From the IMG/VR virus record IMGVR_UViG_3300025080_000002, positions 1 to 20,310 of that record: a DNA stretch of 20,310 bases, one strand, 5' to 3'. Below the pieces are notes generated by a model. That model ran no database searches, was not told the origin of the DNA, and saw nothing but the letters and a program-made list of their open reading frames with translations. This DNA comes from a virus. Made by a program: the position numbers and the translations under genes. Shown here piece after piece: positions 121 through 20,129 of the stretch; within the stretch, counting starts at the first letter, position 1, and every line of letters starts with the position of its first letter.

Positions 121-149
121 GGCTCAGACCTCCAGAGACAGTGTACCAC

Positions 150-6112: not shown

Positions 6113-8031
6113 GCGAATGCCTGCGCGAAGGAGCCGCCACGGCGGCGAGCATCAAACACCGCGCCAACAGCACGCTGTTCGATACTGCCGTGCAGCTGCG
6201 CGATCATCGATTCCAGTCGGGCCAGTCCCTCACGGTCTGCGCCACGCGCATCAATGTAGTAGGTGCCCCCGCCACTGGATTGCAGCGCGTTGTGCGGTAC
6301 GATCTTGCCGCTGCCACTCGGGACGAATAGCTCAGGCCCGCGCTCGCCGACCATGTAGGCGCGGCCATGATCGACCGGCCCACCCTTGGCACGCGGGCCG
6401 CCGAACAGACCGCCGAACAGATCGCGGAACACCAGCCCAAGCCCTTCCCCCAGTGGCCGCGACACATGCTCTTGGATCAGCACCCGCGCAATGTCATCCG
6501 CCACCTGCCGCAAAATGCCCGACAGCGTGACACCACGCTCGCCGAGCCGCGAGAATGCACTCTCGCCGATACGGGCCAACTGATCCAGCCCACGGCCCGC
6601 CCTGTCAGACGATGCTTGCGTGTCATCAAGCGCCGCATTCATGCGGCCGACGCTCGTTTCCGCACCGACGGCCATCGTGTCGAACCACTTCAGCGCGGCA
6701 TTCACCATCTCGACGATGATCGAGTTACCCACCAGCCGCTGATACATGCGCTGCGCGCCGTCCACCACGCCTTGCCACGTCTCGGCCACGCGCCGCGCAA
6801 TGCGCCCGAACGCGCCGAAAACCACATCAACGATCTCGCGCACCGTGCGCGAAACCCAGCCGAAAGCGTCAACAATGGCCGTGCGCAATACGCCCAGCGC
6901 AACCCCCACCGCATCCACCACCACACCGAAAATCCGCCGGATGTCATCGCCCCACAGCACCCACGCCGTAGTGAGTGCCGCCGCCGCGCCGATCAACAAA
7001 CCGATGGGGCCAGTGCCAACCATAATCAGCGCCTTCACGGCCAGCCCAACCAGCTTTGTCCCCGTTGCGAATGCCGCAAATGCCACGACCGCTGCCTTGA
7101 CGGCCGCTATCGCCGCCGCGAATACAGGGATGATCGCGCCAATGCTCGCCACCACCGCGCCGAACGCCACCAGCACCGGCCCCAGCACTGCCGCAATGCC
7201 GCCAGCAATGACGATCCATTTCACCGTCCGATCACTCAGCGACTCCAGCCAGCGCACCACGCCGCCAAGTGCTTCCGTCAGCGGTGGCAGTACCTTGACG
7301 ATCACCTCGCCGATCCGCTCGGAGAACTCGCCCCACGCCAGTCGCAGCGAGTTCATTTGTCCGCTGGTGGTCGCGGCCATCGCAGCGGCTTGGCCGCCAT
7401 ACTGCCGCTCAAGCTCGGCCAGGATGATCCCCTGCGCGCCGGCGACGTTGCCGGCCTCGGCCATTGCCTTGATTTGCTCGCGCTGCTGCTCGGTGAATAT
7501 CACGCCAACACGATGAAGCGCAGTGACTCCACGGATCGGATCATTGATTGCCCTACCGACCAAGATTGCGCTGCCCTGCAAGTCTTTGCCGAGCCGCGCT
7601 GAAAGATTGATCGCCGCCAACTGCGCACGATCAAACGCTTCGCCGGCGATATTCCCAAAGGTCAGCAGGTTTGCCGTTACCCTGCCCAGCACAATATCGC
7701 CATCCACACCGAGATCGCGCTGAAGGGCCATCGCCATGTCTTGCAGCTGTTGCGATGTGCGCCCGGCTGCCGGCCCCATCGACGCCAGCGCCGCTTCCAC
7801 GCCCGCCACCGCCCGCTCCGCCTCTTGATAGGCCAGCACCGAGGCCGCGCCAAAGGCAGCAACCGGAAGCGTCACCGCAGCGGTAAGCCCCGCGCCGACC
7901 TTCGCAGCTCTCGCGCCCATCCGGCGCATGGAGTGCGCGGTCTGCTGTTCGGCAGAGTCCAACCCCTGCCGCAAATCCCGATCATCCGTCACCAGCTTCA
8001 GGACTGCTCGACCCAGCGATTCCATCGTCAT
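6109..8031 (-). CDS. Tape measure protein
   Basis: This 640-residue protein is the second longest of the tail genes. It is helical throughout, begins with a coiled-coil region (LRQGLDSAEQQTAHSMRRMG), has a strongly hydrophobic zone at about 272-360 that could cross the host membrane during ejection, and ends with the conserved AKGGPVDHGRAYMVGERGPE / LFVPSGSGKIVPHN motif seen in many tape measure proteins. It sets tail length and exits ahead of the DNA. At about 0.15 nm per residue the tail would be about 100 nm (inference). The start overlaps GT by 50 bp; an ATG two codons in (8025) is an alternative. No peptidase domain is seen. Confidence 0.92.
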   Translation of the reverse strand: MTMESLGRAVLKLVTDDRDLRQGLDSAEQQTAHSMRRMGARAAKVGAGLTAAVTLPVAAFGAASVLAYQEAERAVAGVEAALASMGPAAGRTSQQLQDMAMALQRDLGVDGDIVLGRVTANLLTFGNIAGEAFDRAQLAAINLSARLGKDLQGSAILVGRAINDPIRGVTALHRVGVIFTEQQREQIKAMAEAGNVAGAQGIILAELERQYGGQAAAMAATTSGQMNSLRLAWGEFSERIGEVIVKVLPPLTEALGGVVRWLESLSDRTVKWIVIAGGIAAVLGPVLVAFGAVVASIGAIIPVFAAAIAAVKAAVVAFAAFATGTKLVGLAVKALIMVGTGPIGLLIGAAAALTTAWVLWGDDIRRIFGVVVDAVGVALGVLRTAIVDAFGWVSRTVREIVDVVFGAFGRIARRVAETWQGVVDGAQRMYQRLVGNSIIVEMVNAALKWFDTMAVGAETSVGRMNAALDDTQASSDRAGRGLDQLARIGESAFSRLGERGVTLSGILRQVADDIARVLIQEHVSRPLGEGLGLVFRDLFGGLFGGPRAKGGPVDHGRAYMVGERGPELFVPSGSGKIVPHNALQSSGGGTYYIDARGADREGLARLESMIAQLHGSIEQRAVGAVFDARRRGGSFAQAFA

Positions 8032-8646
8032 GCACCACCCCCACGCCCATCATCGCCAATCGACTGCGCCACTCGGCTGGCGTCAGCTTGCGCTTGGGCA
8101 GGCCCGCCCTCGCTGCTTTCTGCCACGCGCCGACCATCCGCTTCATCGCCTCCCGCTTGATCGTGGCAGCGCCGACCTGCACCACCGCCGACAGCGCCAG
8201 AGCCTCTTGCGCCCGCATCCGATGCATGGCCTCGGTCGCTGCGGTCAGCATCGAGAGCGGCATGTCCAGCCACTCTTCTACGCTCCCGCCGTAGAATCGG
8301 AGGCAGTACCAGATGGCGTCGTACTCGCCTGCGCCGACGACGGGCGCACAGTAAAAACCTCGATCACCGCAGCCATCTGTCCAGGTGCCAACTTGGCCGC
8401 CACCTCGGGCGGCACACTCGGCGCGACCTGCGCGAACACCGCCGCAAGGGCAGCATCACAGGCCATCGCCTCTTCTTCAGACAGATCATCGCGTGTCGCG
8501 TGCTCAGACAGGACTCGCGCTTGTCGGCGCAGGCGCGATGCTTCGAGTGTGGACAACGATCCGGGATCGGTCAGCGCATAGTGCACGCCGTCAATCGTGA
8601 TCGTGTCCGGTTCCGTTTTGGTGCTGATGTCCCGCAGATTGGCCAT
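7982..8646 (-). CDS. Tail assembly chaperone GT, by programmed -1 frameshift
   Basis: The reading frame -1 to G is open from before 8360 down to a TGA at 7982. After the shift it encodes EYDAIWYCLRFYGG, SVEEWLDMPLSMLTAATEAM, a helical Ala-rich part and GLPKRKLTPAEWRSRL. The stretch upstream of its first in-frame ATG (8263) is clearly coding-like, so the T part is not an independent gene. Joining at the TTT codon 8355-8353 gives 98 + 123 = 221 residues. GT proteins recruit tube subunits to the tape measure. The T end overlaps the tape measure gene by 50 bp, as is common. The frames and overlap are seen; the shift itself is inferred from the conserved G/GT arrangement. Confidence 0.8.
8278..8646 (-). 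CDS. Tail assembly chaperone, G-type
   Basis: The ATG at 8646 has GAAGGGG upstream. The 122-residue zero-frame product has strand-rich DTITIDGVHYALTDPGSLSTL, then a helical middle (ASRLRRQARVLSEHATRDDL onwards) and a low-complexity Ser/Thr/Ala C-terminus. It lies directly between tail tube and tape measure, where lambda has gpG. G proteins coat the tape measure before tube assembly. A -1 shift near codon 98 gives the longer GT product; the stretch after that point in the zero frame looks like filler. Confidence 0.8.
   Translation of the reverse strand: MANLRDISTKTEPDTITIDGVHYALTDPGSLSTLEASRLRRQARVLSEHATRDDLSEEEAMACDAALAAVFAQVAPSVPPEVAAKLAPGQMAAVIEVFTVRPSSAQASTTPSGTASDSTAGA
8330..8359 (-). 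promoter_or_regulatory. Ribosomal -1 frameshift signal: T-run plus hairpin
   Basis: On the minus strand the zero-frame codons are GAG GTT TTT ACT. The run GGTTTTTA (8359-8352) allows a U-UUU slip. Four bases after the TTT codon a perfect 6-bp GC-rich stem follows: TGCGCC (8348-8343) pairs with GGCGCA (8335-8330) over a 7-base loop. A slippery run followed closely by a hairpin is the usual -1 signal, though the heptamer is not the canonical X-XXY-YYZ form. Confidence 0.65.
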
Positions 8647-8806
8647 GGTGTTCCCCTTCGCCGATGAACTGCAACTCTAACCGGTTGGCAATCGAGCGCA
8701 GCGTGGATAACTCATTCATGCATTCGTGCAGCCGCGAACGGTGATACCGCACGCGACTCTTGTGCTCCCGCGCCTCGCGTTCCAATGCGGCGATGCGCGA
8801 ATCCAT
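8591..8806 (-). CDS. Small coiled-coil protein between tail tube and chaperone
   Basis: The start at 8806 forms a TAATG junction with the tail tube gene. The first 50 residues (MDSRIAALEREAREHKSRVR onward, then LHECMNELSTLRSIANRLEL) make a convincing charged coiled coil. The frame then overlaps gene G by 56 bp, where its own sequence turns into low-complexity His/Gly/Asp text, as if the tail is tolerated rather than selected. Without this gene about 160 bp would be empty, unlike the rest of the operon. No family recognised; a chaperone or translational-coupling role is possible. Confidence 0.6.
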   Translation of the reverse strand: MDSRIAALEREAREHKSRVRYHRSRLHECMNELSTLRSIANRLELQFIGEGEHHGQSAGHQHQNGTGHDHD

Positions 8807-9402
8807 TACAGCGGCACAGTAGTCTGCGCACGCAACACGCCGAACTCTTGGCCGGCAGGCGCAGACGTGTCAATCAGCGCAACACAACTGATCTCCAGAC
8901 CGGCAGGCTCGCCACGCGAATACACCACCTCGGCCTCAGCGCGGAAGTAACACCGGCGCAACTCATATTGCAGCGGGAATGCCGCGCCATACGGCCCCGG
9001 CCCGCGCAACAGCAGCGACCGCACCGGCGGCGATCCCGCCCCCCGATACAGGTTGATCGAGCGCGATCCCGGCACGCCAGCAGAAGCCGGAACGCTGGTC
9101 AGCGGATTGAAGCCGAGTACCGCCTGATAGGCTTCGAGCGTCAGGTCATGCAGCACGAAAGACAAACTCAAGCCCTCCGACACTCGCGCCGCCTTGACCG
9201 GGCCAGTCGCGCCCAGCATGCGGAACTCCTCGATTTCTTCCTCGTGCGCGACGGTGATGCCATCCTCCGAAATGTTCATGTTCCCCCGCGTGCCAAGCCG
9301 TGCCCACGGCACTGCCGGCGCAACAGTCAGCAGCGGGAATGCGGTGCCAGTCGGTGCGACCCAAACATCGTATGGCGCAGCGATGATCTCAAACGGTTCC
9401 AT
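8806..9402 (-). CDS. Major tail tube protein
   Basis: The start at 9402 has AGGAG 6 bases upstream. The 198-residue protein starts with a PYDVWVAPTGTAFP strand pair, then MNISEDGITVAHEEEIEEFRMLGATGPVKAAR, typical of siphophage tube proteins. Next come LSLSFVLHDLTLEAYQAVLG and a second beta half with a RRCYFRAEAEVVYS strand. The single-beta-sandwich tube subunit forms hexameric rings of the non-contractile tail. Size and place (before the G/GT chaperones and tape measure) agree. Its TAA overlaps the next ATG as TAATG. Confidence 0.85.
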   Translation of the reverse strand: MEPFEIIAAPYDVWVAPTGTAFPLLTVAPAVPWARLGTRGNMNISEDGITVAHEEEIEEFRMLGATGPVKAARVSEGLSLSFVLHDLTLEAYQAVLGFNPLTSVPASAGVPGSRSINLYRGAGSPPVRSLLLRGPGPYGAAFPLQYELRRCYFRAEAEVVYSRGEPAGLEISCVALIDTSAPAGQEFGVLRAQTTVPL

Positions 9403-9411
9403 ATTCGTCTC

Positions 9412-9825
9412 CTAGGTTTCAGATGCCAGCACGGTGTAGGACTCCCACACGCGAGGCCAGCGGGTATCAGGGTCGCGTCCGGTGCTGTAGCCGCCGGCTG
9501 GTTGCGCCCAGTGGAAAAGCACAGCCCCGACCTGCACGCGGGTCATGGATCGCAAAGCAGCACGCACCGCACGCCGCAAGCGCTGCGCCTCATGCGGAGT
9601 CACCCCATAACACCAGGCATCCACCCGCAACGAATCGAGCGGCAACGCACGCGCATACTCCGTCACCGTCCCGCCCGATGGCGTCAGCACCAGCGCAGAG
9701 CGCGGCATGTGAGCCGTCTCGCCGGCAGGCAACTCGACACCAAAGACGCGATCACCGACCAGCGCGACGATGCCCGGCTGTGCGCGCAAGTGCGCAACCA
9801 TCGCTGCGAGCAGGTCGCGGATCAT
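9412..9825 (-). CDS. Tail terminator (DUF3168-like)
   Basis: The 137-residue protein begins IRDLLAAMVAHLRAQPGIVALVGDRVF, the usual helix-turn of DUF3168/gpU-like terminators, followed by PRSALVLTPSGG, a DSLRVDAWCYGVTPHEAQRLRRAV helix and a C-terminal beta hairpin. Proteins of this type cap the tail tube and set the stop of tube polymerisation. Its placement between the gp10-like gene and the tail tube supports this. The start overlaps the previous stop (ATGA). Confidence 0.82.
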   Translation of the reverse strand: MIRDLLAAMVAHLRAQPGIVALVGDRVFGVELPAGETAHMPRSALVLTPSGGTVTEYARALPLDSLRVDAWCYGVTPHEAQRLRRAVRAALRSMTRVQVGAVLFHWAQPAGGYSTGRDPDTRWPRVWESYTVLASET

Positions 9826-10175
9826 CGGCTGCGCTCCATCTGCCGGGACAGCTCGCCCACCAGCTCGGGATAGACCGCATCCGCTGCCGGGCGCAGGAAC
9901 GGGAAAGCCGGCATCCTGCTCGTGCCCAGCTCCAGGAAAATCGCGTATGCCGTGTCCGCGCTACCCCACAGCCCGGCAACGCCGTGGCGATCCTCATACG
10001 CGTAATAGGTGATGCGGATCGACCCCTCAAGGATGCCCGTCCGATTGGTCCACGGGTGATTCTGCTTCGCGTGGATGACACAGCGCGACATGATCCGGTT
10101 GACGGCGCGCTTTTGCGCGGTCAGCACCCGACGCAGGTATTCCTTGCCGGTCCAGTCAATCGTGTATCGCTTCAT
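9822..10175 (-). CDS. HK97 gp10-like neck/tail component
   Basis: The ATG at 10175 overlaps the preceding TGA (ATGA). The 117-residue protein shows the gp10 family pattern: an N-terminal helix with KEYLRRVLTAQKRAVNRIM, HPWTNRTGILEGSIRI (the family TG.L..SI motif), then YAIFLELGTSRMPAFPFLRPA, where YA.fLE.GT..mpa.PFl.PA is the hallmark. These proteins act at tail completion or head-tail joining in HK97-like siphophages. The end overlaps the tail terminator start by 4 bp. Confidence 0.9.
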   Translation of the reverse strand: MKRYTIDWTGKEYLRRVLTAQKRAVNRIMSRCVIHAKQNHPWTNRTGILEGSIRITYYAYEDRHGVAGLWGSADTAYAIFLELGTSRMPAFPFLRPAADAVYPELVGELSRQMERSR

Positions 10176-10516
10176 GCCGCACGCTCCAACTGCGCCTCGA
10201 CGTAGCCAAACCGCCGACGCAAGGCCGATGCAATCACCCACACGCCGGGGAACACCACACTGCCCAATCGATCCTCGATCCGGGCGATACGATCCACAGG
10301 CCGCACGTCAGCTCCAACAGGCAGCGCGCACCACAACACCTCGACACGCGCCACTTTCTCGCCGTCCGCCACCATGCTGGGCCGCTCCGAATGCCACGCA
10401 TGACACGGCACCACCGCGAGCGGCTGCCAGTCGGGCGGCGTCGGGTGGCCATATGCGTCGAGGCCAGCCGACACGCTGCGCTCCACGATGGCCCGGTAGG
10501 TCATCCGACCGCGCAT
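10172..10516 (-). CDS. Probable head-closure/head-tail adaptor protein
   Basis: The start is taken at 10516 because of the TGATG junction; an ATG four codons in (10504) is possible. The 114-residue protein is rich in beta strands: PLAVVPCHAWHSER, VARVEVLWCALPVGADVRPVDRIARI, then GVWVIASALRRRFGYVEAQLE. A small beta-barrel between the gp6-like connector and the gp10-like protein fits a stopper/adaptor of the SPP1 gp16 type. The assignment is by position and predicted fold more than by motif. Confidence 0.65.
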   Translation of the reverse strand: MRGRMTYRAIVERSVSAGLDAYGHPTPPDWQPLAVVPCHAWHSERPSMVADGEKVARVEVLWCALPVGADVRPVDRIARIEDRLGSVVFPGVWVIASALRRRFGYVEAQLERAA

Positions 10517-11034
10517 CACACCAGCCCCAGCCGGCCCGCCAACAGCGGGGCCAGCAGCATGTCCCTCTCTGCCTGATACACCGGCAGCGTGACCGAGTAG
10601 TCCCCAGCCTTTTCCGACTTCGCGCCGGAATACTGGATCGACAGCTTCACGAGGTCGATCTGCACACGACGGCGAATATCCAAGTCCGAAACCGGGACGT
10701 AAACCACGACCACTTCCTCGCCCCACCACACACGCGGATTGGCACCCGTCGCCAGCCGCAGCAGCTCACGCGAGTGCGTCAGCCGCCAATCGCTAGCAGC
10801 CAAAGCCTGCCCCACACCACCCACTCGCTCCGTGATGCTGGTGACGGACACCACCGGACGCGAGGTGACCAGCACCCGCGAATCAGGCAAAAGGAAAGTG
10901 TCGCGCTGCGCGTTGTGCGCTCCGGCGACGGACGCGATTTCCTGCGCCGCCGCCGACAGCAGCCGAGTCAAGGCCGAGTCCGAAAGGTCGGACTCCACAT
11001 GCTCCCGGACTTGTCGCAGCGTGACATCGCTCAT
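10516..11034 (-). CDS. Head-tail connector, gp6-like
   Basis: The 172-residue protein opens with TLRQVREHVESDLSDSALTRLLSAAAQEI, an all-helical beginning in which residues span a short helix bundle. A beta segment follows (RVLVTSRPVVSVTSITERVG), then a helix with LVKLSIQYSGAKSEK. This is the arrangement of HK97 gp6 / SPP1 gp15-type connectors, which dock as a ring under the portal. Its location right after the capsid and 56-aa genes supports this. Its stop shares one base with the next ATG (TGATG). Confidence 0.8.
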   Translation of the reverse strand: MSDVTLRQVREHVESDLSDSALTRLLSAAAQEIASVAGAHNAQRDTFLLPDSRVLVTSRPVVSVTSITERVGGVGQALAASDWRLTHSRELLRLATGANPRVWWGEEVVVVYVPVSDLDIRRRVQIDLVKLSIQYSGAKSEKAGDYSVTLPVYQAERDMLLAPLLAGRLGLV

Positions 11035-11201
11035 TTGCGCTGCGGCCTCGGCCGCTCCTTGGTCTGCGCGACCAGCAGCGGCTGCTGTTCCTCCGCCACC
11101 GGATCACCCGGCGCGGCGTACAACTCCGCCGCGTCAGGATCACCCTCGTACACCAGCCGCGTCCGGTCAGCAGTCCAGTAGATGCGTTGCTCGGCGATCA
11201 T
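11031..11201 (-). CDS. Small virion-region protein, 56 aa
   Basis: The ATG at 11201 follows GGGAG by 6 bases, starting 12 bp after the capsid stop, and its TGA overlaps the connector start (ATGA). The translation begins MIAEQRIYWTADRTRLVYEG, continues DPDAAELYAAPGDP, and ends in a basic RPRPQRK tail. Small proteins with this YWTADRxRLVxEGDPDAA pattern occur between capsid and head-tail connector genes in related phages, from memory of the family. The function is unknown; position and basic tail are compatible with a minor head role. Confidence 0.78.
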   Translation of the reverse strand: MIAEQRIYWTADRTRLVYEGDPDAAELYAAPGDPVAEEQQPLLVAQTKERPRPQRK

Positions 11202-11213
11202 GACGTACTCCCA

Positions 11214-12509
11214 TCACAGACCGGTCACGGTGCAAAAGGCAGCCGGGCGGAACACCACGAATGCCCAGCGACCATCCGCCCGCATCGTGCGCCGCCCCTG
11301 CGCGAACTGGTCGCCGATGTAGCCGACCTGTACATCCACGCCGCGCCGCTCGGCCAGCGTGACCCACTGCGGCGAGAACGAGCCAACAAAGGCCGTGCCC
11401 GCAGCACCCGCCTGCGACAACACCACCGGCAAGCCGAAGAGCCGATCCGGGCCGGGCTGGCTCGGGTGGCCCCACAGCCAGTTGCCGTTCGTGTCGCGCT
11501 CCGTGCGCACCGCCGACCAGTTGGTCGAGTGCATGACCACATGGGTCGGCTCAGCGCGGCCAACCGAACGAACCAAGTCCATGGCGCGGAAGATCGCAAC
11601 CGGGATCGGCTCCAGAGGCGGGCCAACACCGCGTGCCGTGGTCTGGATGCCGGCCGTGTTGAGCAGGCCGCGCAGGTTCGGCGCAGTGCCGTTGCCGACC
11701 AGCACCTGCGAGTCCAGCCGCTGCCGCACGCCGAACATCAAGCGCGTGTTGAGGTAGCTCTCGACCTGCGCCACATCCTCCAGCTGTTCGTCCGTCACCG
11801 GAATCGACTCGGCGATCTTGCGAACGAGGCTCGTGCGCTCGGTCAAAACGAAGGTCGAAGAGCCATACAGCGCGCCCTCCAACACCTCGACTCCACCATG
11901 CGTCCGGGTCGTTTCCTCCATGTACACCACGCTGTCTCCGACAGTGCGCGACAGCGGCATGATGTCCAGGACTTGGATCGGACGGGTTGCAGCCTCGACC
12001 ATTTCGCCGATGCGGATGCGCTCCGGTGCCCAGCCAGCAGTGGTGGTCATCATCTTGGCGTGCATCGTGTTGTTGCCGCCAGACGCCACCAGCAGGTCAG
12101 ACGGCATCACGCCGTCAAGTTGGAGGGTGATGCCGCCCGCCCCGCCCGACTTCGACCAGCGCACATAGTCGGGATGGCTCGTGACCATCTCGCCCAACGA
12201 CTTCTGCGGGCCACTGTATGCCCGCTCGTCGCCGCCCGGATGACGGATCGACCCACGTGAGGATTCACGGTCGGCCTGCGCCTTGGCCGCTTTCTCGACC
12301 GCCTCAAGCGAATCGATCTCGGTGCCGATGGCGTCGAGTTCCGCGTTCATGGCGCGGATTTTCTCGGCCTTGGCGATGGTGCTCAGGTCGCCCAGCGACT
12401 TGATCCGATCAAGGTCGAGTTCACCGGAATCGGTGCGGGCTTCGGTGAAAATTCCGCCGAGGGCGGATTGCTTGGCCGCGAGTTCTTCGCGCTTCTTGCT
12501 GATGCTCAT
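11214..12509 (-). CDS. Major capsid protein, HK97 fold, with N-terminal delta domain
   Basis: The ATG at 12509 follows AGGAGG by 6 bases and is chosen over an upstream in-frame ATG (12656) that would overlap the protease. The 431-residue protein starts with a charged coiled-coil (about 1-85: SISKKREELAAKQSA, then AKAEKIRAMNAELDAIGTEI), typical of the scaffolding delta domain removed by the protease. The rest has HK97-capsid features: TAGWAPERIRIGEMVEAATR, LDIMPLSRTVGDSVVYMEET for the N-arm/E-loop region, KIAESIPVTDEQLEDV, YLNTRLMFGVRQRLDSQVL, and the C-terminal FRPAAFCTVTGL. It forms the icosahedral shell. The exact cleavage site cannot be fixed by eye. Confidence 0.93.
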   Translation of the reverse strand: MSISKKREELAAKQSALGGIFTEARTDSGELDLDRIKSLGDLSTIAKAEKIRAMNAELDAIGTEIDSLEAVEKAAKAQADRESSRGSIRHPGGDERAYSGPQKSLGEMVTSHPDYVRWSKSGGAGGITLQLDGVMPSDLLVASGGNNTMHAKMMTTTAGWAPERIRIGEMVEAATRPIQVLDIMPLSRTVGDSVVYMEETTRTHGGVEVLEGALYGSSTFVLTERTSLVRKIAESIPVTDEQLEDVAQVESYLNTRLMFGVRQRLDSQVLVGNGTAPNLRGLLNTAGIQTTARGVGPPLEPIPVAIFRAMDLVRSVGRAEPTHVVMHSTNWSAVRTERDTNGNWLWGHPSQPGPDRLFGLPVVLSQAGAAGTAFVGSFSPQWVTLAERRGVDVQVGYIGDQFAQGRRTMRADGRWAFVVFRPAAFCTVTGL

Positions 12510-12606
12510 GGCGTCCTCCTGGGACTGCACACGGCCAGCAAGCGGCCTGGAAAATGGGTTGGCTGCGACAAGCGCGGGGAAATCAGAACACGGAAAAATG
12601 CCCCCG
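12510..12606. other. 97-bp gap between protease and capsid genes
   Basis: No ORF is visible. On the minus strand it carries the strong capsid ribosome binding site (AGGAGG, 12527-12522). Near the protease stop there is only a weak possible stem with G-U pairs around a T-rich stretch, and I do not call it a terminator. The gap may allow independent, high-level translation of the capsid gene. Confidence 0.5.
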
Positions 12607-13305
12607 TCAAGTACGCCGCAGCACGAATGCACTGTAGGCGCGTCGTACCTCTGCATCTGCCGAGCGGGTCAACTCGTCGGCAAGGGGCAGCAATGCAGCA
12701 ATGGCGGCCTTGATGCGGTCGAGGTCTTCGCAACGATCCTGCGACAGCCTCCGCCCGTCGGCAGCGCGCAGCGCCTTGATGGCGGCCATGCGAGCAGCAA
12801 GCGATTCGATTTCGGCCCGCACGTCGGCAATCTGCGCGATCACAGAGCGGTCTCCGTGCTTCATCGCCAATGTCCGGGTGCCGAGGCCCGCACCGATAAC
12901 CACCGGTGAGACCTCATGCACGCGCAGCGATTCGAGATAGCGGACGCTCTTGCCGTCGATCTGGCCGAGCGAGGATTTGACGATCTCGAAGCCGTACGAC
13001 CACTGCTGCGTGGGCTGGTCGAGCAGGTCGAACTTCAGCGCTGCGTGCCAATCGCGGGCGGCCTCGATCTCAAGGTTTAGCGTGAACTCCGCCATCGCCT
13101 CGTTGCCCTGCTCGAAGATGCGCGCCTTGCCAATCGGGACATGCCCCCAATCGTGCGCAGGCAGCACCTTGACCGTCTGCTCTCCGAATGCACCGGGCAG
13201 GGTCACGTCGCCATCTCGATCAACGACGCCCAACGTCGCAAATACTGCGAGGCCGACGCCCTTGTCCGAAACGCGCTTGATTTCGGTGATGTGCTTGATG
13301 TCCAT
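12607..13305 (-). CDS. HK97-family prohead maturation protease
   Basis: The start at 13305 has GAGG upstream in the short gap after the portal gene. The 232-residue protein has the family layout: an early DRDGDVTLPGAF motif, catalytic His51 in LPAHDW followed by PIGKA, catalytic Ser103 in QWSYGFEI, and VHEVSPVVIGA (129-139). The protease cleaves the scaffold-like N-terminal region of the capsid protein and itself during maturation. Residues about 155-232 form a long helical tail with Ala/Arg/Glu repeats; such tails can direct incorporation into the prohead. It precedes the capsid gene as expected. Confidence 0.92.
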   Translation of the reverse strand: MDIKHITEIKRVSDKGVGLAVFATLGVVDRDGDVTLPGAFGEQTVKVLPAHDWGHVPIGKARIFEQGNEAMAEFTLNLEIEAARDWHAALKFDLLDQPTQQWSYGFEIVKSSLGQIDGKSVRYLESLRVHEVSPVVIGAGLGTRTLAMKHGDRSVIAQIADVRAEIESLAARMAAIKALRAADGRRLSQDRCEDLDRIKAAIAALLPLADELTRSADAEVRRAYSAFVLRRT

Positions 13306-13314
13306 CTTTTCGCC

Positions 13315-15378
13315 TCAGTCGAGATAGTGCGGTGCGAAAGACCGCGTGCCGTTGGGATGCTCGGTGAGCATCAACTCATACGCCTCGTCCGCGCTCACAA
13401 TCGCGCCATCTAGTGCCATGCAGATTTCATCGGTGTCACCCAGCCGCGCATCGAAGATGATGTAGTGCAGTATGCCGTTCGCTCGGCCATGCTCTACCGT
13501 CGAGTAGTTCTGTGCGTACTTCGCTTCGGTTCTGGCGATGACCTCGGCGCGAATCTTCGGCGATGACCACGGGCCAGCCGGCACCGCATCGCGGATCTGC
13601 CGCGCAATCGCAGCAGCCCCCAGACCCTCCGCCCGCCCATGCGCCACCGCCGACAGGATCGCATCACGGGTCTGCGCGCCAATGTCCACCAGCCCAGCAC
13701 GCCGGCCACCCGTGGCGATGATCGCACGGGCCACCGGATCGGAGATGCTCGTGGCAAGCTGCGGCAAGCCAGCACGCGCCGCCGCACTGCGCACGTCTTC
13801 AGCGCAGCGCAAATACTCGCGCTCGTAGAGGCCCACAAACAGCCTCCGGTGCTCGGGCATCTGCATCGCCTCGATCACCCGATCCGTCAGCATTCCGTTT
13901 AGTAGGGCGCTCTTTTCCTCGGCCTCAATCGCCGGCTCAGCAGCAGTCGCGGCCGCTTCGCCAAGCTCGCGGAAGTACGTCCCAAGCGCCCGCGCCCATC
14001 GTGCCGACGATCTCCGGCGCAGCGCCTCCAACGAGTCGGCAAAGGTTTCCTCCGCCTCGGTCGGCTCGGTATGTGGCGCATGTTCCGCAATGCGTACATC
14101 AATCGGTGAGTGCGAGTGCTTGACGTGGGCGCTCTGATGGTGGCACTTGGTGCCAGTCGCCTGCGCTGCTTTCGTTGCCGCCGGCGTCTCGATTACGCCC
14201 ATCGGACGCAGAAAGATGTCGTGACTGCGATTAACCGGGATGCCGAGCATCTGCCGGCTCTCGGCCAGGGTGATGATGCCGGCACGGAGTAGCTTGTCGG
14301 CGCGGCCCGCCACCGCGTCAGCATCTTCTCGCAGCGCCTCAATCTGGGCCGTGTCGAAGTAGAGGCGCAAGCGGGCGGGTTGCTGGAAGTCAGGGCCTAG
14401 CGAGCGCAGCACCTCCGATGCGATGTTGTTCTGCATCGGGATGACGCCACTGTGCCACGCGATCCGCACCTGCTCGCGCATGGTCGCGCCTACGCTGGTC
14501 TGGCTGGTGCCCGCGTGCAGACCGACCACCACCGGCGGCACGCCAAGCAACGCACACACACGCTCCTCGGCGCGGTCAGTGATCGAGGTGAGGTCGAGTT
14601 CTTTCGGGTTCCACGCCAACCGGTCGATCTTCGTTTTCGCGCTGAAGACCAGTGGCGTACCGCGCTTGGTGCCGCTGAACTGCTCGCTCAGGTAGCGCTT
14701 CATGGCGGCCAAATCGTCGGGACTGGCCGACTGCGGGCCGTCGGGCGACAGGATCAGGCCAGGGATGCCCGCGTTGCGCAGGATCGCCGCAGCAAATACG
14801 GACGCCTCCATGTCCGACCACACCTCGCGCAGCGCCGCGGCCAGCGGAGCCAGCCCCATGCGCAGGTCATCGGGATTGATGCCGGCGCGGATATGCACTA
14901 CGTCCGATGGTAGCAGCGTCTGCACCTCCGTGCCGGGCCGGTATTCGTAGTGGCTGATGTACTCGCTCCCATCCACCGGCCAGCGCGGACGGATCAGCCA
15001 ATGCGGCGCGTACCAGAGTTCGACAACGCGGCCCGACCCATTGCGCACCTTGAGCCAGTAGGCATTCCCCGCCGTGCACAGACTCAGCACGGTAGCGGAC
15101 AGCAGGTGATCGCGGCTATAGGCCGGATTCGGATTGTGCAGCAGCGCCGCGAGCGGATGATTGGGGAGCGGCTTGCCGTCAGCCTCGACCACCAGCGGGG
15201 CGGTCGGGACGGTGCGCTGCAACCACTGCACCGGGGCCATGATGACCGAAGAGCCGAGGCCGTTGCCGACCTCTCGGGCCATGTCAACCGCCGCCTGCTC
15301 CGATGTGCCGGCGCTCGCCCAAGACCACGACGTGGACGGGTGGCGGATACGGTCGAGTGCCTTCAAGAGCCAGCTCAT
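13315..15378 (-). CDS. Portal protein fused to MuF-type minor head protein
   Basis: This 687-residue protein has two parts. Residues about 1-400 match HK97-type portals: VQWLQRTVPTAPLVV, HNPNPAYSRDHLLSATV with GNAYWLKVRN, VVHIRAGINPDDLRMGLAPL, the LLGVPPVVVGL stem region, and a final ITLAESRQMLGIP. Residues about 447-687 match the phage Mu gpF (SPP1 gp7) minor head family: AIARQIRDAV, RAEVIARTEAKYAQN, DARLGDTDEICMALDG and a terminal HPNGTRSF. A His/Ser/Pro-rich linker (about 411-440) joins them. The portal is the dodecameric DNA channel; MuF proteins sit inside or at the portal vertex and help assembly or DNA ejection. Such fusions exist in some phages but the two are normally separate genes. 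No stop or frame change separates the halves. The protease gene starts 9 bp downstream. Confidence 0.9.
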   Translation of the reverse strand: MSWLLKALDRIRHPSTSWSWASAGTSEQAAVDMAREVGNGLGSSVIMAPVQWLQRTVPTAPLVVEADGKPLPNHPLAALLHNPNPAYSRDHLLSATVLSLCTAGNAYWLKVRNGSGRVVELWYAPHWLIRPRWPVDGSEYISHYEYRPGTEVQTLLPSDVVHIRAGINPDDLRMGLAPLAAALREVWSDMEASVFAAAILRNAGIPGLILSPDGPQSASPDDLAAMKRYLSEQFSGTKRGTPLVFSAKTKIDRLAWNPKELDLTSITDRAEERVCALLGVPPVVVGLHAGTSQTSVGATMREQVRIAWHSGVIPMQNNIASEVLRSLGPDFQQPARLRLYFDTAQIEALREDADAVAGRADKLLRAGIITLAESRQMLGIPVNRSHDIFLRPMGVIETPAATKAAQATGTKCHHQSAHVKHSHSPIDVRIAEHAPHTEPTEAEETFADSLEALRRRSSARWARALGTYFRELGEAAATAAEPAIEAEEKSALLNGMLTDRVIEAMQMPEHRRLFVGLYEREYLRCAEDVRSAAARAGLPQLATSISDPVARAIIATGGRRAGLVDIGAQTRDAILSAVAHGRAEGLGAAAIARQIRDAVPAGPWSSPKIRAEVIARTEAKYAQNYSTVEHGRANGILHYIIFDARLGDTDEICMALDGAIVSADEAYELMLTEHPNGTRSFAPHYLD

Positions 15379-16574
15379 TCTGCGATGATCCTCCAGCCTG
15401 ATCCCGCCATGGCCGAGTAGGCGTAGGCGGCAGCGTCCACCCCATCATCATACGCACCTGCGGGGAATGACGCAACCTCATCGCGGAACCACGCCGGCAC
15501 GCCGGACGGATCGTGCCGCACCATCCGCTGCTCGTAGCGGGTGAGCAGCGGTGCAAAGCGCGTGATCTTGTCCCGGTCTGGCCGCACCCCGCGCACCGGT
15601 AGCGCAGTGGTGCGGGCCAGTTCCTGCACGACGGCGGCCTGATACTGCGTCTGCTCGATGGCGATCATCACCGGATTGTGCCGGGCGGCGGCGGCAGTGA
15701 TTCGGTCTAGTGCGTCGGCGAACCCCACTCGATGCCGCTCCGCCTCTCGGATGTAGACGATGCCGGTCTGCGGGTCGCGGGCGATGGCCACGATAGCGGT
15801 GTAGTTGGCCCCGTCCTTCGTGCTGATTGCCAGATCGACGCCGAGCGTGATCGGCAGGCCGGGCGGCATGATGCCGTCGAGGATCATCTCGGGCTTGACC
15901 AGCCCGGAGCCGAACTCAACGAACTCCGCCAGATATTCCTGCCGGTACACGAGGTCGGGCAGCTCCAGCCGTCGCGATTCGATCTCGGCCGGCGATATGT
16001 GCGGATTGGCGCTGGTCGGCGCGTGGAACGACTGCCAGTCGGGATAGGCCGGGTCGCCCCCGCGCCGGTACAGGTCGCGGAAGTATCCCGCGCCGGCAGG
16101 CGTGGACAGGAACCGCGCCGAGCCGCGCAGGTCAGTGAGTGTCGGGCTGATTGCGCGCTCCCACACCTCAGCGAGGTTGCGCGAGTGCGCCGCCTCGTCG
16201 ATGACTACCCGCGCGTACTTGCGGCCACGGCCGGCTTCCATGTCTTGCAGCGTCCAGCCGTCTATCGTGCCGCCCGTCACCAGCTCGATCCGCATTTCCA
16301 GCCGGTTGCTGCGCTTCATGAGCGGCCTCAATGTGCGCTCCAGCTCGGCCCACGGGTCCAGCAGTAGCTTGTACGTCGGCGCAAAGATGGCGACGGGCAA
16401 GCCGTCAATCGCCCCGCCGGCCGACAGCGCCAGCCACTCGACGGCTAGGGCCGTCTTGCCGAATCGCCGACCACACGCCGCCACGACGTACCGCGCCGGA
16501 CAGTCATGGATGACCTGCTGCACCGGGTGCAGGTCGGCCGGCGTGATGTGCGCTCGCTTGCGGGCCGCCGGCAC
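15375..16574 (-). CDS. terL: Terminase large subunit (packaging ATPase/nuclease)
   Basis: The 399-residue protein starts at a GTG overlapping the terS stop by one base. The N-terminal ATPase shows Walker A GRRFGKT (35-41), Walker B VVIDEA (123-128, catalytic Glu127) and a coupling motif STPAG (157-161). The C-terminal RNase-H-fold nuclease shows Asp247 in GVDLAIS, Glu307 in MIAIEQT, and the DDGVD cluster (376-380). The enzyme pumps DNA into the prohead at the portal vertex and cuts the concatemer. It is at the short end for the family but complete. Its TGA overlaps the portal start (ATGA). Confidence 0.96.
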   Translation of the reverse strand: MPAARKRAHITPADLHPVQQVIHDCPARYVVAACGRRFGKTALAVEWLALSAGGAIDGLPVAIFAPTYKLLLDPWAELERTLRPLMKRSNRLEMRIELVTGGTIDGWTLQDMEAGRGRKYARVVIDEAAHSRNLAEVWERAISPTLTDLRGSARFLSTPAGAGYFRDLYRRGGDPAYPDWQSFHAPTSANPHISPAEIESRRLELPDLVYRQEYLAEFVEFGSGLVKPEMILDGIMPPGLPITLGVDLAISTKDGANYTAIVAIARDPQTGIVYIREAERHRVGFADALDRITAAAARHNPVMIAIEQTQYQAAVVQELARTTALPVRGVRPDRDKITRFAPLLTRYEQRMVRHDPSGVPAWFRDEVASFPAGAYDDGVDAAAYAYSAMAGSGWRIIAE

Positions 16575-17116
16575 TACGCGCCCTCAGGGCGCTTGAGCTG
16601 CGCATAGCTGCGGATGATCTCGATTTCCTCGACCGGTGCCGGGGCCTCGCTGCGGTGCGCGGCCAGCAGCGCCAGCGCCGGAGATAGCGCCTCGTTGCCG
16701 ATCTTCGCCAACGCCCCCACCGTCCGCAGTTCCTCAATGTCGCCACCCACCTGCATCCGCTCGGCCTGTACCCTGGCCAGCGCGTGCAACCGGCGGCCCG
16801 TCCGCGCACCGTCCGCCGCTGCATGAGCAACGTCGGTGCTGATGCCGCGTAGCTGGTCGGCGAGGGTCATCGCCATCTCACGCTGATACGGCTCCAGCGC
16901 ACCTATCAGCGCATCCGCCACCTCCCTGGTGTCCGCCGCCTCGGCGACCGTCTGTGCCGCCATCCGGACAGCCCGGCCGCCGTTACTTACGCGGTGAGAA
17001 ATCGCGGCGTGGCTCACACCGTATTCACGGGCGAGGTCTACGACCCCCTCGCCGGCGGCTAGGCGCATCTCTACGTCGCGCCACTGTTCTGTGGTCAGTT
17101 TGCTGGGTCGGCCCAC
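16574..17116 (-). CDS. terS: Terminase small subunit
   Basis: The start is GTG at 17116, with AAGGAGG about 7 bases upstream. The 180-residue protein begins MGRPSKLTTEQWRDVEMRLAAG and has a helix-turn-helix at about residues 20-46 (EGVVDLAREYGVSHAAISHRV). Long alpha-helices follow that fit an oligomerisation core, then a C-terminal segment that would contact the large subunit. Small terminases recognise the phage packaging site and feed DNA to the large subunit. Identity rests on the N-terminal HTH, the length, and immediate coupling to the large terminase: its TAG shares one base with the GTG start of terL. Confidence 0.85.
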   Translation of the reverse strand: MGRPSKLTTEQWRDVEMRLAAGEGVVDLAREYGVSHAAISHRVSNGGRAVRMAAQTVAEAADTREVADALIGALEPYQREMAMTLADQLRGISTDVAHAAADGARTGRRLHALARVQAERMQVGGDIEELRTVGALAKIGNEALSPALALLAAHRSEAPAPVEEIEIIRSYAQLKRPEGA

Positions 17117-17117
17117 T

Positions 17118-17207
17118 TGCCAGCCCTCCTTGGGATGCGGTCATCGGCCCATCCGGTCTTTGGCGACTGCCATGACGGGGGGCGGTGTGTCGGGATGCGG
17201 GCTGGCA
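17118..17207 (-). repeat. Inverted and direct repeats in the pre-terminase gap
   Basis: The 94-bp gap between the 55-aa gene and terS carries a perfect 9-bp inverted repeat: TGCCAGCCC on the minus strand at 17207-17199 pairs with GGGCTGGCA at 17126-17118. It also holds two copies of CCGCATCCC (minus strand 17200-17192 and 17140-17132), 60 bp apart. The left arm abuts the AAGGAGG ribosome site of terS, so an RNA stem could mask it. Alternatively the repeats may be terminase or regulator binding sites. No ORF is present in the gap. Confidence 0.5.
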
Positions 17208-17210
17208 TGG

Positions 17211-17378
17211 TCAGCCGGCGAGGTAGCGGATGGCCGGCGCGTCAGGCTCCGGCTCATCGCCCGGGCCGCCATGCTCGTCCCATGCCCATGCCCGGCTGTC
17301 TGCCGTGGCCATTTCGTACTCCTTGGCCGTGGCCAGTCGTTCCAGCGCGTCGGCGATGCGCCTCAGTTGCTCTTCCAT
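17211..17378 (-). CDS. Small acidic hypothetical protein, 55 aa
   Basis: The ATG at 17378 has GAAGGAG 7 bases upstream, 17 bp after the previous stop; a longer open frame in the same phase would overlap the 103-aa gene and is rejected. The N-terminal half (MEEQLRRIADALERLATAKE) is a heptad-like helix and the C-terminal half is acidic and proline-containing. No family recognised. It is the last small gene before the gap preceding terminase. Confidence 0.62.
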   Translation of the reverse strand: MEEQLRRIADALERLATAKEYEMATADSRAWAWDEHGGPGDEPEPDAPAIRYLAG

Positions 17379-17394
17379 TTCGCTACTCCTTCGG

Positions 17395-17422
17395 ATTATC
17401 CGATCATTTGGGGTTTTGTCAA
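17395..17422 (-). promoter_or_regulatory. Near-consensus sigma70-type promoter ahead of the packaging genes
   Basis: On the minus strand, TTGACA (17422-17417, 6/6 to consensus) is followed after 16 bases by GATAAT (17400-17395, 5/6 to TATAAT). It lies in an unusually AT-rich patch of an otherwise GC-rich sequence, inside the 3' end of the 103-aa gene. Transcription would begin near 17388, about 10 bases before the 55-aa gene start and about 270 bases before terS. It is the only candidate of this quality I noticed in the window. That it is active is inference. Confidence 0.6.
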
Positions 17423-17707
17423 GCCCATCTGATGCAACTCCGCCTTCAACCACGAGCGGCTGTAGGTCGCCGCATGCGGGTCGATGGTGGCGAATAGCTC
17501 CATGCCTCGCGTTTTCTCGATCGCCTTCTGCTCTTCGGTGCCGGCCTTCGGCGCATAGATCATGCCCGAGCGGCTCATGTAGAGCGCGGTGCGCTTCTGG
17601 CTCGTGGCCCATGCGAGGACGGCGAGTTTATGGACGCGGCTGGTGGCTGTGTCGAGGCCCGTGGCGATGGATGCGATGTGCTCGACTAGGATGGTCTTGC
17701 TGCTCAT
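17396..17707 (-). CDS. Hypothetical protein, 103 aa
   Basis: The ATG at 17707 overlaps the resolvase stop (ATGA). The protein starts MSSKTILVEHIASIATGLD and continues with a helical, mildly basic middle and a C-terminal helix-like stretch before GLTKPQMIG. I do not recognise the family. The last codons, from the TTG for Leu to the TAA stop, double as a near-consensus promoter for downstream genes (17395-17422). Confidence 0.65.
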   Translation of the reverse strand: MSSKTILVEHIASIATGLDTATSRVHKLAVLAWATSQKRTALYMSRSGMIYAPKAGTEEQKAIEKTRGMELFATIDPHAATYSRSWLKAELHQMGLTKPQMIG

Positions 17708-18048
17708 GCGTTGCTGCTCCTGATGGTGATGGTGATGCTGTATTCCTTGCCCTTTTGCTGCCCGTAGCCCCAGCGGATGCGCTCGTCGCCGTCGTCGATG
17801 CCGATGGCGTCGGCCACCCCATCGCGCACGGCCTTGCACGCCGAGGCCAGATTGTCGCTGTCCAGCTTGCGCGGGCCGACCCGCACGATCTTGACCTCAT
17901 AGGGCGGCTCTAGTGCGTCACGCCGCAAGCCGGACTGCACTGCCAGCCGACACACGAGCCGCTCTTGAGCGGCCCGCCGCGCCTTCGGTGCCCAGTGCTC
18001 GCGCAGGTTGGCGACGCTGTAGAGTCGCAGCGGAAGGCGGATCACCAT
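17704..18048 (-). CDS. RusA-like Holliday junction resolvase
   Basis: The start at 18048 overlaps the previous stop by 7 bp, with AAGGAAGG upstream; a longer frame to 18108 would overlap the YbcO gene heavily and is rejected. The 114-residue protein has RusA-type acidic residues: D63 and D65 in KLDSDNLASACKAVRDGVAD, Lys72 and D80, then GIDDGDERIRWGYGQQKGK (D85, D86, D88). RusA family enzymes are homodimers that cleave four-way DNA junctions in a metal-dependent way. The length matches the family (about 120 residues). Placement after ninB and the YbcO-like gene matches the ninB-to-Rap/RusA arrangement of lambdoid phages. Confidence 0.82.
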   Translation of the reverse strand: MVIRLPLRLYSVANLREHWAPKARRAAQERLVCRLAVQSGLRRDALEPPYEVKIVRVGPRKLDSDNLASACKAVRDGVADAIGIDDGDERIRWGYGQQKGKEYSITITIRSSNA

Positions 18049-18335
18049 GTGACCCAGCCTTCCTTGACCAGCGCGGCTTGCGTGCGCACCACGCCTTCGA
18101 GAAAGCACTTGTCCACGAAGTCGCGGTCGAAACCGCTGCTGCCGTGAACGTCATAAGCCTTGTGGCAGTGGTCGCACGCCCACGCTCCGATTAGGTCAGG
18201 CGACTTGATCCCCATGCCGCTGACGCCGCTCAGCCGGACGTGGGCGAGCACGGTCGGCGAGTGCTGGCAGCCGGGCAGCCGCACCTGACACTCCCGGTGC
18301 GCCGCCTGTTTCCGCAGGTCATTCATGCGCTTCAT
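18042..18335 (-). CDS. YbcO/DUF1364-like nuclease
   Basis: I chose the first ATG (18335) because GGAGG lies about 6 bases upstream; an internal ATG three codons later is weaker. The 97-residue protein closely follows E. coli YbcO (DLP12 prophage): NDLRKQAAHRECQVRLPGC, then VLAHVRLSGVSGMGIKSPD, LIGAWACDHCHKAYD, then a final MxRTQAxLVKEGW-like helix (here VVRTQAALVKEGW). Conserved metal-ligand candidates are C16, C23, H32, C54, C57, H58 and H64. YbcO is described as a small metal-dependent nuclease-type fold, placed with Holliday-junction or recombination genes in lambdoid phages. It sits here between ninB and a RusA-like gene. Confidence 0.88.
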   Translation of the reverse strand: MKRMNDLRKQAAHRECQVRLPGCQHSPTVLAHVRLSGVSGMGIKSPDLIGAWACDHCHKAYDVHGSSGFDRDFVDKCFLEGVVRTQAALVKEGWVTW

Positions 18336-18768
18336 TGCGCCCTCCGTTGTCGTGAAGCGGAATCCCTTGATCCACCGCCCATGCCTGCGAGCAGGTAATC
18401 AGGTCGGCCATGTCCATGACGCCAAGGCCGCGCGTCTGCACTCCGAGGTTGACCACGCTCTGCCCGTCGAGGCTTGGCACGATCCGGCACTGCGGCCTGC
18501 CCTCGGTGCGTGCCCATGCGTCAACGAGTAGCCGCTTCCAGCCTTCGGCGTCCATCGGATGCCCGGCCCATGTTGGCCGCGCCTCGGCAACGTCGGAACA
18601 CAAGGCGTGAAACATGTCGTTCTGCTCCCGGCTGCGGCGGGCGCGGTATTCCTCGACCGTCACGCGGACGCGCTTTCCAAGCTCAAGGTAGGACTGCGCG
18701 GCCCGCCACGCGGCTGCCATGCGGACCTTGGCTTGATCGGTGTCTAGGATGAACACGGAGCGGATCAT
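18319..18768 (-). CDS. ninB: NinB-like recombination protein
   Basis: The 149-residue length is close to that of lambda NinB (Orf). Family features are seen: an N-terminal strand and helix, then SREQNDMFHALCSDVAE (about residues 46-62), where the family has an S.xQN...W motif, then DAEGWKRLLVDAW, then a PSLDGQSVVNLGVQTRGLG strand-turn region, then MDMADLITCSQAWAVDQGI. In lambda this protein is a single-strand-binding recombination mediator in the Red pathway, able to replace RecFOR. The gene is coupled by ATGA to the winged-helix gene. It overlaps the YbcO-like gene by 17 bp, forming a recombination cluster with the resolvase downstream. No Red beta or exonuclease is present in the window. 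Confidence 0.88.
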   Translation of the reverse strand: MIRSVFILDTDQAKVRMAAAWRAAQSYLELGKRVRVTVEEYRARRSREQNDMFHALCSDVAEARPTWAGHPMDAEGWKRLLVDAWARTEGRPQCRIVPSLDGQSVVNLGVQTRGLGVMDMADLITCSQAWAVDQGIPLHDNGGRNEAHE

Positions 18769-19055
18769 GTCGCCACCAGGACCCGCTGCGCCCGGCCACT
18801 GCGCCCGAGCCGGCGCTCGCCCGTGTCCACGATCTTGCCCCGCCGCAGCAGCGCACTGAACCGCGCCGTCAGCGTGGGGTATCTCATGCCGGGCAGCGCA
18901 TCCAGCAACGCGTCCTGTGTCGTCCCGTGCGCCCCAGCGGCGCGGATGGCGCGCAGCACGCGATCCTCGGCGCTGTCGGTGTCCACGGCGTAGGCAGCAG
19001 CCACGCTGGTGTCGTGCGCGTAGTGGCGGTGGAGCATGTAGGCGGGTGTGGTCAT
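18765..19055 (-). CDS. Winged-helix-like phage protein
   Basis: This is a 96-residue protein coupled by ATGA overlaps at both ends. Residues 27-95 read as a winged helix: a helix SAEDRVLRAIRAAG, then GTTQDALLDALPGMRYPTLTARFSALLRRG (helix-turn-helix), then a wing with KIVDTGERRLGRSGRAQRV. This pattern, ending in a basic Arg/Ser/Gly wing, is shared with many small phage DNA-binding proteins that sit beside NinB or nuclease genes. It probably binds DNA. Whether it regulates transcription or assists recombination cannot be told. Confidence 0.75.
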   Translation of the reverse strand: MTTPAYMLHRHYAHDTSVAAAYAVDTDSAEDRVLRAIRAAGAHGTTQDALLDALPGMRYPTLTARFSALLRRGKIVDTGERRLGRSGRAQRVLVAT

Positions 19056-19483
19056 GGCGTCACATCCACAACTGCATCGGGGTCGCTGGTGTAGCGCACC
19101 ACACGCCCGTCATAGTCAACGGTCGGGAACGCCGGGTTCGGGTCGCGGTGCATGGAGAGCGCCCGCTCCATCGCCTTCTTGATCTCCCACGCGCGATGGG
19201 CTCTAGCATCTACGTGCCGATGGCCGATGCCGTTTGAGCCGCTCGGGTGATAGCCGAGGATGTGTTTGCACTCGCGCATCTTCGCGTCGATCAAATCGAC
19301 CTCCTCGCGCCCGGCCGTCCTTCGCGGGCTGCCGGAGTCAAGGCCGCCGACCGGGATCGTGCCATCACTCACGAGGCAGGCCACCTCCTCAAGCTGCCCG
19401 ATGCAGAGCCGTGCGTATGTGTCGAGCGCAAACTTGATGGTGTGCGCTTGTTCGAGCGTGGCCTGAATTGTGACCGTGGTCAT
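19052..19483 (-). CDS. Hypothetical phage protein, 143 aa
   Basis: The start overlaps the previous stop as ATGA, and its own stop overlaps the next start in the same way. The N-terminal 35 residues (TTVTIQATLEQAHTIKFALD, then TYARLCIGQLEEVACL) look like an amphipathic helix, as in a family of short phage early proteins. The middle contains a conserved-looking KMRECKHILGYHPSGSNGIGH stretch. A helical ARAHRAWEIKKAMERAL segment follows, and the C-terminus is acidic. I recognise no enzymatic motif. Its position two genes upstream of ninB suggests an accessory role in early or middle expression. Confidence 0.72.
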   Translation of the reverse strand: MTTVTIQATLEQAHTIKFALDTYARLCIGQLEEVACLVSDGTIPVGGLDSGSPRRTAGREEVDLIDAKMRECKHILGYHPSGSNGIGHRHVDARAHRAWEIKKAMERALSMHRDPNPAFPTVDYDGRVVRYTSDPDAVVDVTP

Positions 19484-19719
19484 TCGGCTTCCCCCGCCAT
19501 CCGCTCAAGCTCCCACCAGGGCCGCGCGCCAGCCTCGGCGTGCTCTTTCCACTGCCGCGCGAACGGCTGCATGTCTTCCGGCAGCGACTCGGTGAGGCAG
19601 TCGGCGCAGACTCCCGAGCCGCGCGACGACTCCCCGCACTTCGGGCATGCGCCCATCGTCGTGACGGCGGGGCGCATGACTTGATAGCGCAGGCTGAATA
19701 GCGTGTCGTGGATGTTCAT
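19480..19719 (-). CDS. Small zinc-ribbon protein
   Basis: This 79-residue protein starts at an ATG that overlaps the stop of the DUF1566 gene (ATGA), preceded by GAGGAAGG. Its centre contains two CxxC pairs, CPKC and CADC, spaced by nine residues (C-x2-C-x9-C-x2-C), a classic treble or ribbon zinc site. The N-terminus (MNIHDTLFSLRYQVMRP) and the acidic, Trp-containing C-terminus are not recognised. Such small zinc proteins in phage early regions may bind nucleic acid or host protein, but nothing here decides that. Its end overlaps the next gene by 4 bp. Confidence 0.75.
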   Translation of the reverse strand: MNIHDTLFSLRYQVMRPAVTTMGACPKCGESSRGSGVCADCLTESLPEDMQPFARQWKEHAEAGARPWWELERMAGEAE

Positions 19720-20129
19720 GCCTTCCTCGCTTTGTCGATGGCCGGCACCGAACGCACCGCGCGGACGAGGCCGAAGCTGCTGTCGCGGTAGTCGTAGCTG
19801 CAGTAGCCGTAGCCGAAGCTGACGAGCCAGGCGAGGGCCGGGGACCACGCGCAGATGGTGCTGGTCCAGTACCAGTCTGGCTTCGTATCCGGGAAGAAAG
19901 TGGTGTCGATGGCCGGGTTGTGCCGAGAGCGATCGACGAGCGCGAGCAGCTCGTGGTCGCTAGGGAGGCGCCAATCGTCGTGGCCAGCGAGCCGTAGCTC
20001 GCGGCAGAGGTCTCCCGCCTGGTGTTGGGTGACACCGACCTCGGTGATGGTCGCCTGCGAGAACATGAGGCCGAGCGCGGGCAGTGTGACGGTGCCATCG
20101 CCGTTGTCGATGAAGCGGGGGTTATCCAT
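19716..20129 (-). CDS. DUF1566 (Lcl C-terminal-like) domain protein
   Basis: The start at 20129 is chosen because AAGGAG lies 6 bases upstream and because it overlaps the previous stop by 8 bp; a longer open frame to 20285 has no such support. The 137-residue protein opens with NGDGTVT and GLMFSQA, then has DDWRLPSDHELLALVD (about residues 56-71), an FFPDT motif, a DWYWTST motif, an AW..SFG stretch and a final VRAVR. This order is the signature of DUF1566 domains, which have a C-type-lectin/FGE-like fold. These occur both as surface or binding proteins and as accessory phage proteins of unknown role. Between AW and VRAVR lies a run rich in Tyr, Ser, Asp and Gly whose codons nearly all end in C, resembling a variable region (see findings). 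No reverse transcriptase is in the window. The molecular target is unknown. Confidence 0.82.
   Translation of the reverse strand: MDNPRFIDNGDGTVTLPALGLMFSQATITEVGVTQHQAGDLCRELRLAGHDDWRLPSDHELLALVDRSRHNPAIDTTFFPDTKPDWYWTSTICAWSPALAWLVSFGYGYCSYDYRDSSFGLVRAVRSVPAIDKARKA

Follow-up and report, generated by a model that had tools for sequence, protein, structure and literature searches.

A probable sigma70-type promoter merged with a stop codon ahead of the packaging genes of an uncultured GC-rich phage

The 20,310-base record of an uncultured GC-rich phage analysed here in full (below, the window; about 65% GC) contains, on its minus strand, a near-consensus promoter-like site where a recombination module gives way to the packaging/structural operon. 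Judging by its sequence, the site is probably, if by no means certainly, a functional host sigma70-type promoter that would serve the late operon. The recombination module would comprise ninB, ybcO, rusA and the gene of a 103-aa protein, and the downstream operon the gene of a 55-aa protein, terS, terL, the portal gene and onward. Host RNA polymerase would start at 17386–17389 and produce the main late-operon transcript. One would expect a late promoter at such a module boundary before a packaging operon. If active, the promoter marks a transcription boundary of this phage, and demonstrates that the last codons and the stop codon of a gene can accommodate a promoter of near-consensus sequence. 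As a sequence element it is credible but ordinary in kind, and it opens no long-standing question.

All 25 genes listed between positions 572 and 20129 have the same orientation. Their order along the minus strand is ninB, YbcO-type HNH nuclease, RusA-like resolvase, the 103-aa gene, the 55-aa gene, probable terS, terL and portal, with the tape-measure gene further along; thus the promoter is on the same strand as, and upstream of, probable terS, terL and portal (Table 1). Neither Pfam nor PHROG gives a match to the 103-aa protein at E ≤ 0.1. Probable terS matches, at 40–43% over 42 aa, a gene ahead of terL in three loci (L008, L009, L016), and TerL has no match with at least 60% identity in the phage collection searched. 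The searches for Rfam families (gathering threshold) and tRNAs across the window produced no match. Upstream of the ninB module, the minus-strand gene at 19716–20129 encodes an Lcl_C domain (Pfam PF07603, E 1e-25).

Table 1. The promoter and neighbouring features (window coordinates)
Feature	Coordinates	Strand	Remark
-35 hexamer TTGACA	17417..17422	-	6/6 consensus
-10 hexamer GATAAT	17395..17400	-	5/6 consensus
Perfect 13-bp palindrome TCGGAT-A-ATCCGA	17391..17403	.	spans -10; candidate operator
Shine-Dalgarno AAGGAG of the 55-aa gene	17386..17391	-	ATG at 17378
NinB	18319..18768	-	
YbcO-type HNH nuclease	18042..18335	-	
RusA-like resolvase	17704..18048	-	PHROG 34; no Pfam match
103-aa gene	17396..17707	-	promoter in its 3' end
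55-aa gene	17211..17378	-	weak PHROG 35332 match, E 0.0009, residues 1-20
37-codon ORF	17095..17208	-	starts 2 nt past the 55-aa stop, overlaps terS start
Probable terS	16574..17116	-	HTH_7, E 2.6e-5
9-nt inverted repeat	17207-17199 / 17126-17118	-	pairs over terS SD in local fold
terL	15375..16574	-	Terminase_6C; PHROG 2
Portal protein	13315..15378	-	PHROG 2662

The original prediction described TTGACA, a 16-bp spacer and GATAAT as an 11/12 match in a GC-rich phage, lying within the coding end of the 103-aa gene; the sequence, the coordinates and the minus strand were all verified. The two hexamers together match 11 of the 12 positions of the sigma70-type consensus, and the spacer (17416–17401) falls within the 16–18 nt range of such promoters. 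The weak points are the G as the first base of the -10 hexamer, the lack of TG ahead of it, and the spacer of 16 rather than 17. The site is indeed in the coding end, as the TAA stop codon of the 103-aa gene (17398–17396) is contained in the -10 hexamer, whose final T is one base beyond the gene. With the -10 hexamer placed at -12 to -7, the predicted +1 is 17388 (G, a purine). It falls inside the Shine-Dalgarno (SD) sequence of the 55-aa gene (17391–17386), which bears out the expectation that a start near 17388 would cut into it; with 17389 as the first transcribed base, GGAG would be retained. The predicted leaders are GAGTAGCGAAATG from 17388 and GGAGTAGCGAAATG from 17389.

Sites of this quality are rare in the window. 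When the minus strand was modelled by Markov chains of order 1–3 and spacers of 15–19 were allowed, 0.008–0.023 sites matching at least 11/12 were expected per 20.3-kb strand, compared to one observed; the estimate is rough, as it rests on 9, 4 and 3 simulated matches in 8 Mb each. The promoter is the only site matching at least 10/12 on either strand. It is also the single lowest-GC 28-mer, the only one of 20,283 with GC ≤ 36%. Its score by a positional weight matrix (PWM) is 12.1, versus 9.2 for the runner-up on the same strand.

To calibrate the site against other phages we used all fetched loci with GC of at least 0.60 (41 loci, 355,006 bases, some of them unrelated to this phage and some not independent of each other). 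These loci contain four sites matching at least 11/12, all in three loci: two divergent sites in L011, and a single site in L014 as well as in its homologue L015. Each of the four is at most about 150 nt from a small regulator-like gene and 3.4–4.8 kb before terL. The consensus promoter-like sites are at 197–235 in L011, 2582–2610 in L014 and 173–201 in L015, and likely represent the early control regions of the group. The small regulator-like ORFs near the strong sites of the TerL relatives contain an HTH_3 domain in L014 and L015 and a YdaS-type domain in L016 and L012, while those of L011 and L008 have only weak matches, to a repressor in the case of L011. The promoter considered here resembles the sites of L011, L014 and L015 in having TTGACA and an 11/12 match in a GC-rich phage of the same TerL group. 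However, those sites are distant from terL and three of the four are on the strand opposite to it, whereas the promoter here lies between co-directional genes and adjoins terS. Since sites matching at least 11/12 are so rare in GC-rich loci, a site this good is probably a promoter. Such sites carry less weight in loci richer in AT: of the two in L012 (52% GC), one is at regulator genes and the other antisense beyond the end of terL.

Twelve TerL relatives (50–70% identity, a near-identical contig excluded), none of which keeps the 103-aa or 55-aa gene, have no sense site matching at least 10/12 within 1.5 kb before terL (0/12), whether or not A and T are required at positions 2 and 6 of the -10 hexamer. 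The best PWM score in this zone, assessed in 11 of the 12, is 8.2, versus 12.1 for the promoter here. No TerL relatives were found in genome contigs. The 24 GC-rich loci that contain a rusA or ninB relative (189,366 bases) lack sites matching at least 11/12 and have nine matching 10/12, two of them sense and 1.9–2.9 kb downstream of the gene (L038, L052); under the position 2 and 6 rule, three 10/12 sites are retained, none of them a downstream sense site. Around the YbcO relatives (11 loci, from 1.5 kb before to 3.5 kb after the gene start, the same rule applied), five sense sites matching at least 10/12 are concentrated in three AT-richer loci (L025, L026, L028), and the other eight loci have none. 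As far as can be seen, the position of the site ahead of terS is a peculiarity of the present phage.

Several other readings have to be weighed; they overlap with the preferred one and with each other, and their probabilities are not expected to sum to one. The likeliest of them, which we nevertheless regard as unlikely, is that the site is a real but minor internal promoter: one operon spanning early and late genes would be transcribed from an upstream promoter outside the window, and the site would top up terS and terL with no late switch. The co-directionality of the 25 listed genes and the fact that no terminator-like site was called on the minus strand from 20000 to the promoter are compatible with such read-through. 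So are the TerL relatives: in six of the 11 scored (L008, L011, L012, L014, L015, L016) strong sites are situated 3.1–4.8 kb before terL and none near terS, several of the other loci being too short upstream to cover this zone. On the other hand, by PWM score (12.1 versus 9.2) the site is the strongest of the window, and it is located at the module boundary, as a late promoter would be.

It is improbable that the site is a product of chance, an AT-rich gene end and a ribosome-binding site having together spelled an unused promoter. The TAA codon and the stretch ahead of the SD sequence do explain a part of the low GC content, and three other 50-nt stretches before gene starts also have GC of 0.52–0.56. 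Moreover, the window is one of many open to scanning, and at the 9/12 level there is no excess, two sites being found in positions 1–20000 compared to the shuffle mean of 2.3. However, doubling of the Markov estimate gives only 0.015–0.046 sites matching at least 11/12 per window for both strands, and when the end of the 103-aa gene was resampled synonymously with the real downstream sequence kept, such a site arose in 25 of 200,000 draws. The -35 hexamer ends 39 nt ahead of the ATG, beyond any need of ribosome binding, and in the 355 kb of GC-rich phage loci sites of this grade occur only beside regulator-like genes. Of the codons used at the gene end, ACA, AAA, CAA, GGA and the stop codon TAA are the rarest synonyms in the 25 listed genes, TTG is the third of six and CCC the second of four. 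The GC3 of the last nine codons stands out only moderately (among 5,965 runs of nine codons, 176 have a GC3 as low; among the 25 gene ends three, those of the 82-aa, ninB and 143-aa genes, are lower, and that of the 232-aa gene is equal), hence the signal resides in the specific bases rather than in low GC3.

The near-consensus hexamers suggest that the promoter would probably need no activator, and hence its timing would be set by something else. The candidates are a repressor bound to the palindrome at the -10, antitermination of the lambda PR' kind, and simply the rising number of templates. The first of these corresponds to a reading that overlaps with the preferred one, namely that a phage regulator binds TCGGATAATCCGA and silences the promoter in the lysogenic state or early in infection. 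The perfect palindrome covering the -10 hexamer suggests it, as does the CI-type repressor gene (Peptidase_S24 and HTH domains) of the TerL relative L012, situated on the other side in that locus, which points to temperate-looking members of the group. Yet the palindrome is single-copy, no other place in the window being within three mismatches of it; with 13 palindromes with arms of at least 6 in the window, the probability of a chance overlap with the -10 hexamer is a few percent; and no regulator gene was identified within the fragment. We consider this reading improbable.

The merger of the promoter with the SD sequence affects the expected translation of the first genes of the late operon. 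Since the predicted start is inside the SD sequence, the 55-aa gene may be poorly translated from the promoter transcript, and would probably be translated mainly from read-through transcripts. The 9-nt inverted repeat forms a local fold of -51.8 kcal/mol (z -2.44; three of 200 shuffles as good) and lacks a U-tract. When the longer leader, starting at 17388, is folded, the arms of the repeat do not pair with each other; the G bases of the terS SD sequence are mostly paired elsewhere and its A bases are open. The terS SD sequence is therefore predicted to be mostly paired. Ribosomes translating the 55-aa gene might open it, and so bypassing this gene might lower the translation of terS. As the 37-codon ORF starts two bases past the 55-aa stop and enters terS, translational coupling is possible. 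An origin of this ORF as an HNH gene remnant was considered and rejected: a phage search gave five weak matches, the best with E 0.7, none of them annotated as HNH.

The original prediction allowed for a second, late transcript beginning at the 55-aa gene or at terS, with terS perhaps as the intended first gene. A promoter at this boundary is the best reading of the data on rarity, position and calibration, but terS as the first gene is not plainly favoured, its SD sequence being predicted to be paired. It is most unlikely that the merged promoter, stop codon and SD sequence form a start-site switch, in which the choice of promoter would set the TerS:TerL ratio: the read-through RNA with the full SD sequence would translate the 55-aa gene, its ribosomes would re-start at the 37-codon ORF and free the terS SD sequence from its pairing, and the RNA from 17388, devoid of a part of the SD sequence, would keep terS low.

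The nearest published layout seen is that of SPP1. According to PMC6316719, the late promoter PL1 lies just upstream of gene 1 (terS), and another promoter, PE5, is inside a coding sequence; the -10 of PL1 is canonical but its -35 is atypical, and an early phage factor is required for late transcription. As described there, PL1 resembles the preferred reading of the promoter here in lying directly before terS and serving the packaging and late region, and PE5 in being within a coding sequence. In contrast to PL1, the phage here has a perfect -35 and a 5/6 -10, and the comparison is by layout, not by sequence kinship.

Lambda PR', with Q antitermination, is a host-polymerase promoter that follows the nin-type genes and drives the late operon, and the late genes of lambda begin with lysis genes. 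The promoter here is similar in its position past nin-type genes and ahead of a late operon, presumably recognized by host polymerase. Unlike lambda, the 55-aa gene and terS come first, and neither a Q-like gene nor a downstream terminator was seen in the fragment. In particular, no intrinsic terminator-like site was called on the minus strand between 17395 and terS, hence a tR'-like target was not seen; the fragment ends at 20310, and the 103-aa gene immediately upstream is without a PHROG or Pfam match. Q and PR' are named in PMC10695390.

One contig, IMGVR_UViG_3300011182_000009 (L003), is near-identical to the window. Its first base matches position 17418, inside the -35 hexamer, and it retains the -10 hexamer and the SD sequence. 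An in-frame 6-nt deletion within its 55-aa gene favours translation of this gene. The start of this contig as a natural genome end was considered and rejected, since the other end is within the tape-measure gene and the contig matches the window throughout; it is probably an assembly fragment.

Apart from it, no relative retaining the 103-aa or 55-aa gene was found among the searched contigs and loci. For the 103-aa protein, the viral contigs produced one weak partial match of 29 residues, within a different, larger ORF; neither the genome contigs nor, at E ≤ 1, the phage collection had a match. The 55-aa protein matches the near-identical contig and, by 18 N-terminal residues, one other locus (L018), in whose neighbourhood inspection by eye revealed no promoter. 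The relatives gathered for the recombination genes were from 11 loci for YbcO, 11 for RusA and the best 80 of 169 for NinB. Among the 91 RusA and NinB loci (for NinB, the best 80 of 169), the 103-aa, 55-aa and terS proteins have no match at E ≤ 0.01, and the 11 YbcO loci match YbcO alone. A dual constraint on the 103-aa gene, by the protein and by the promoter, would involve only its last codons.

The exact junction pattern has five matches in the viral contigs: the near-identical contig, three members of one unrelated coding family, and L034. The latter, an unrelated GC-rich phage, has at 2286–2332 GTGACA, a spacer of 16 nt and GATAATCCGAAGGAG preceding a gene, with the same merger of promoter and SD sequence as judged by eye, probably a coincidence.
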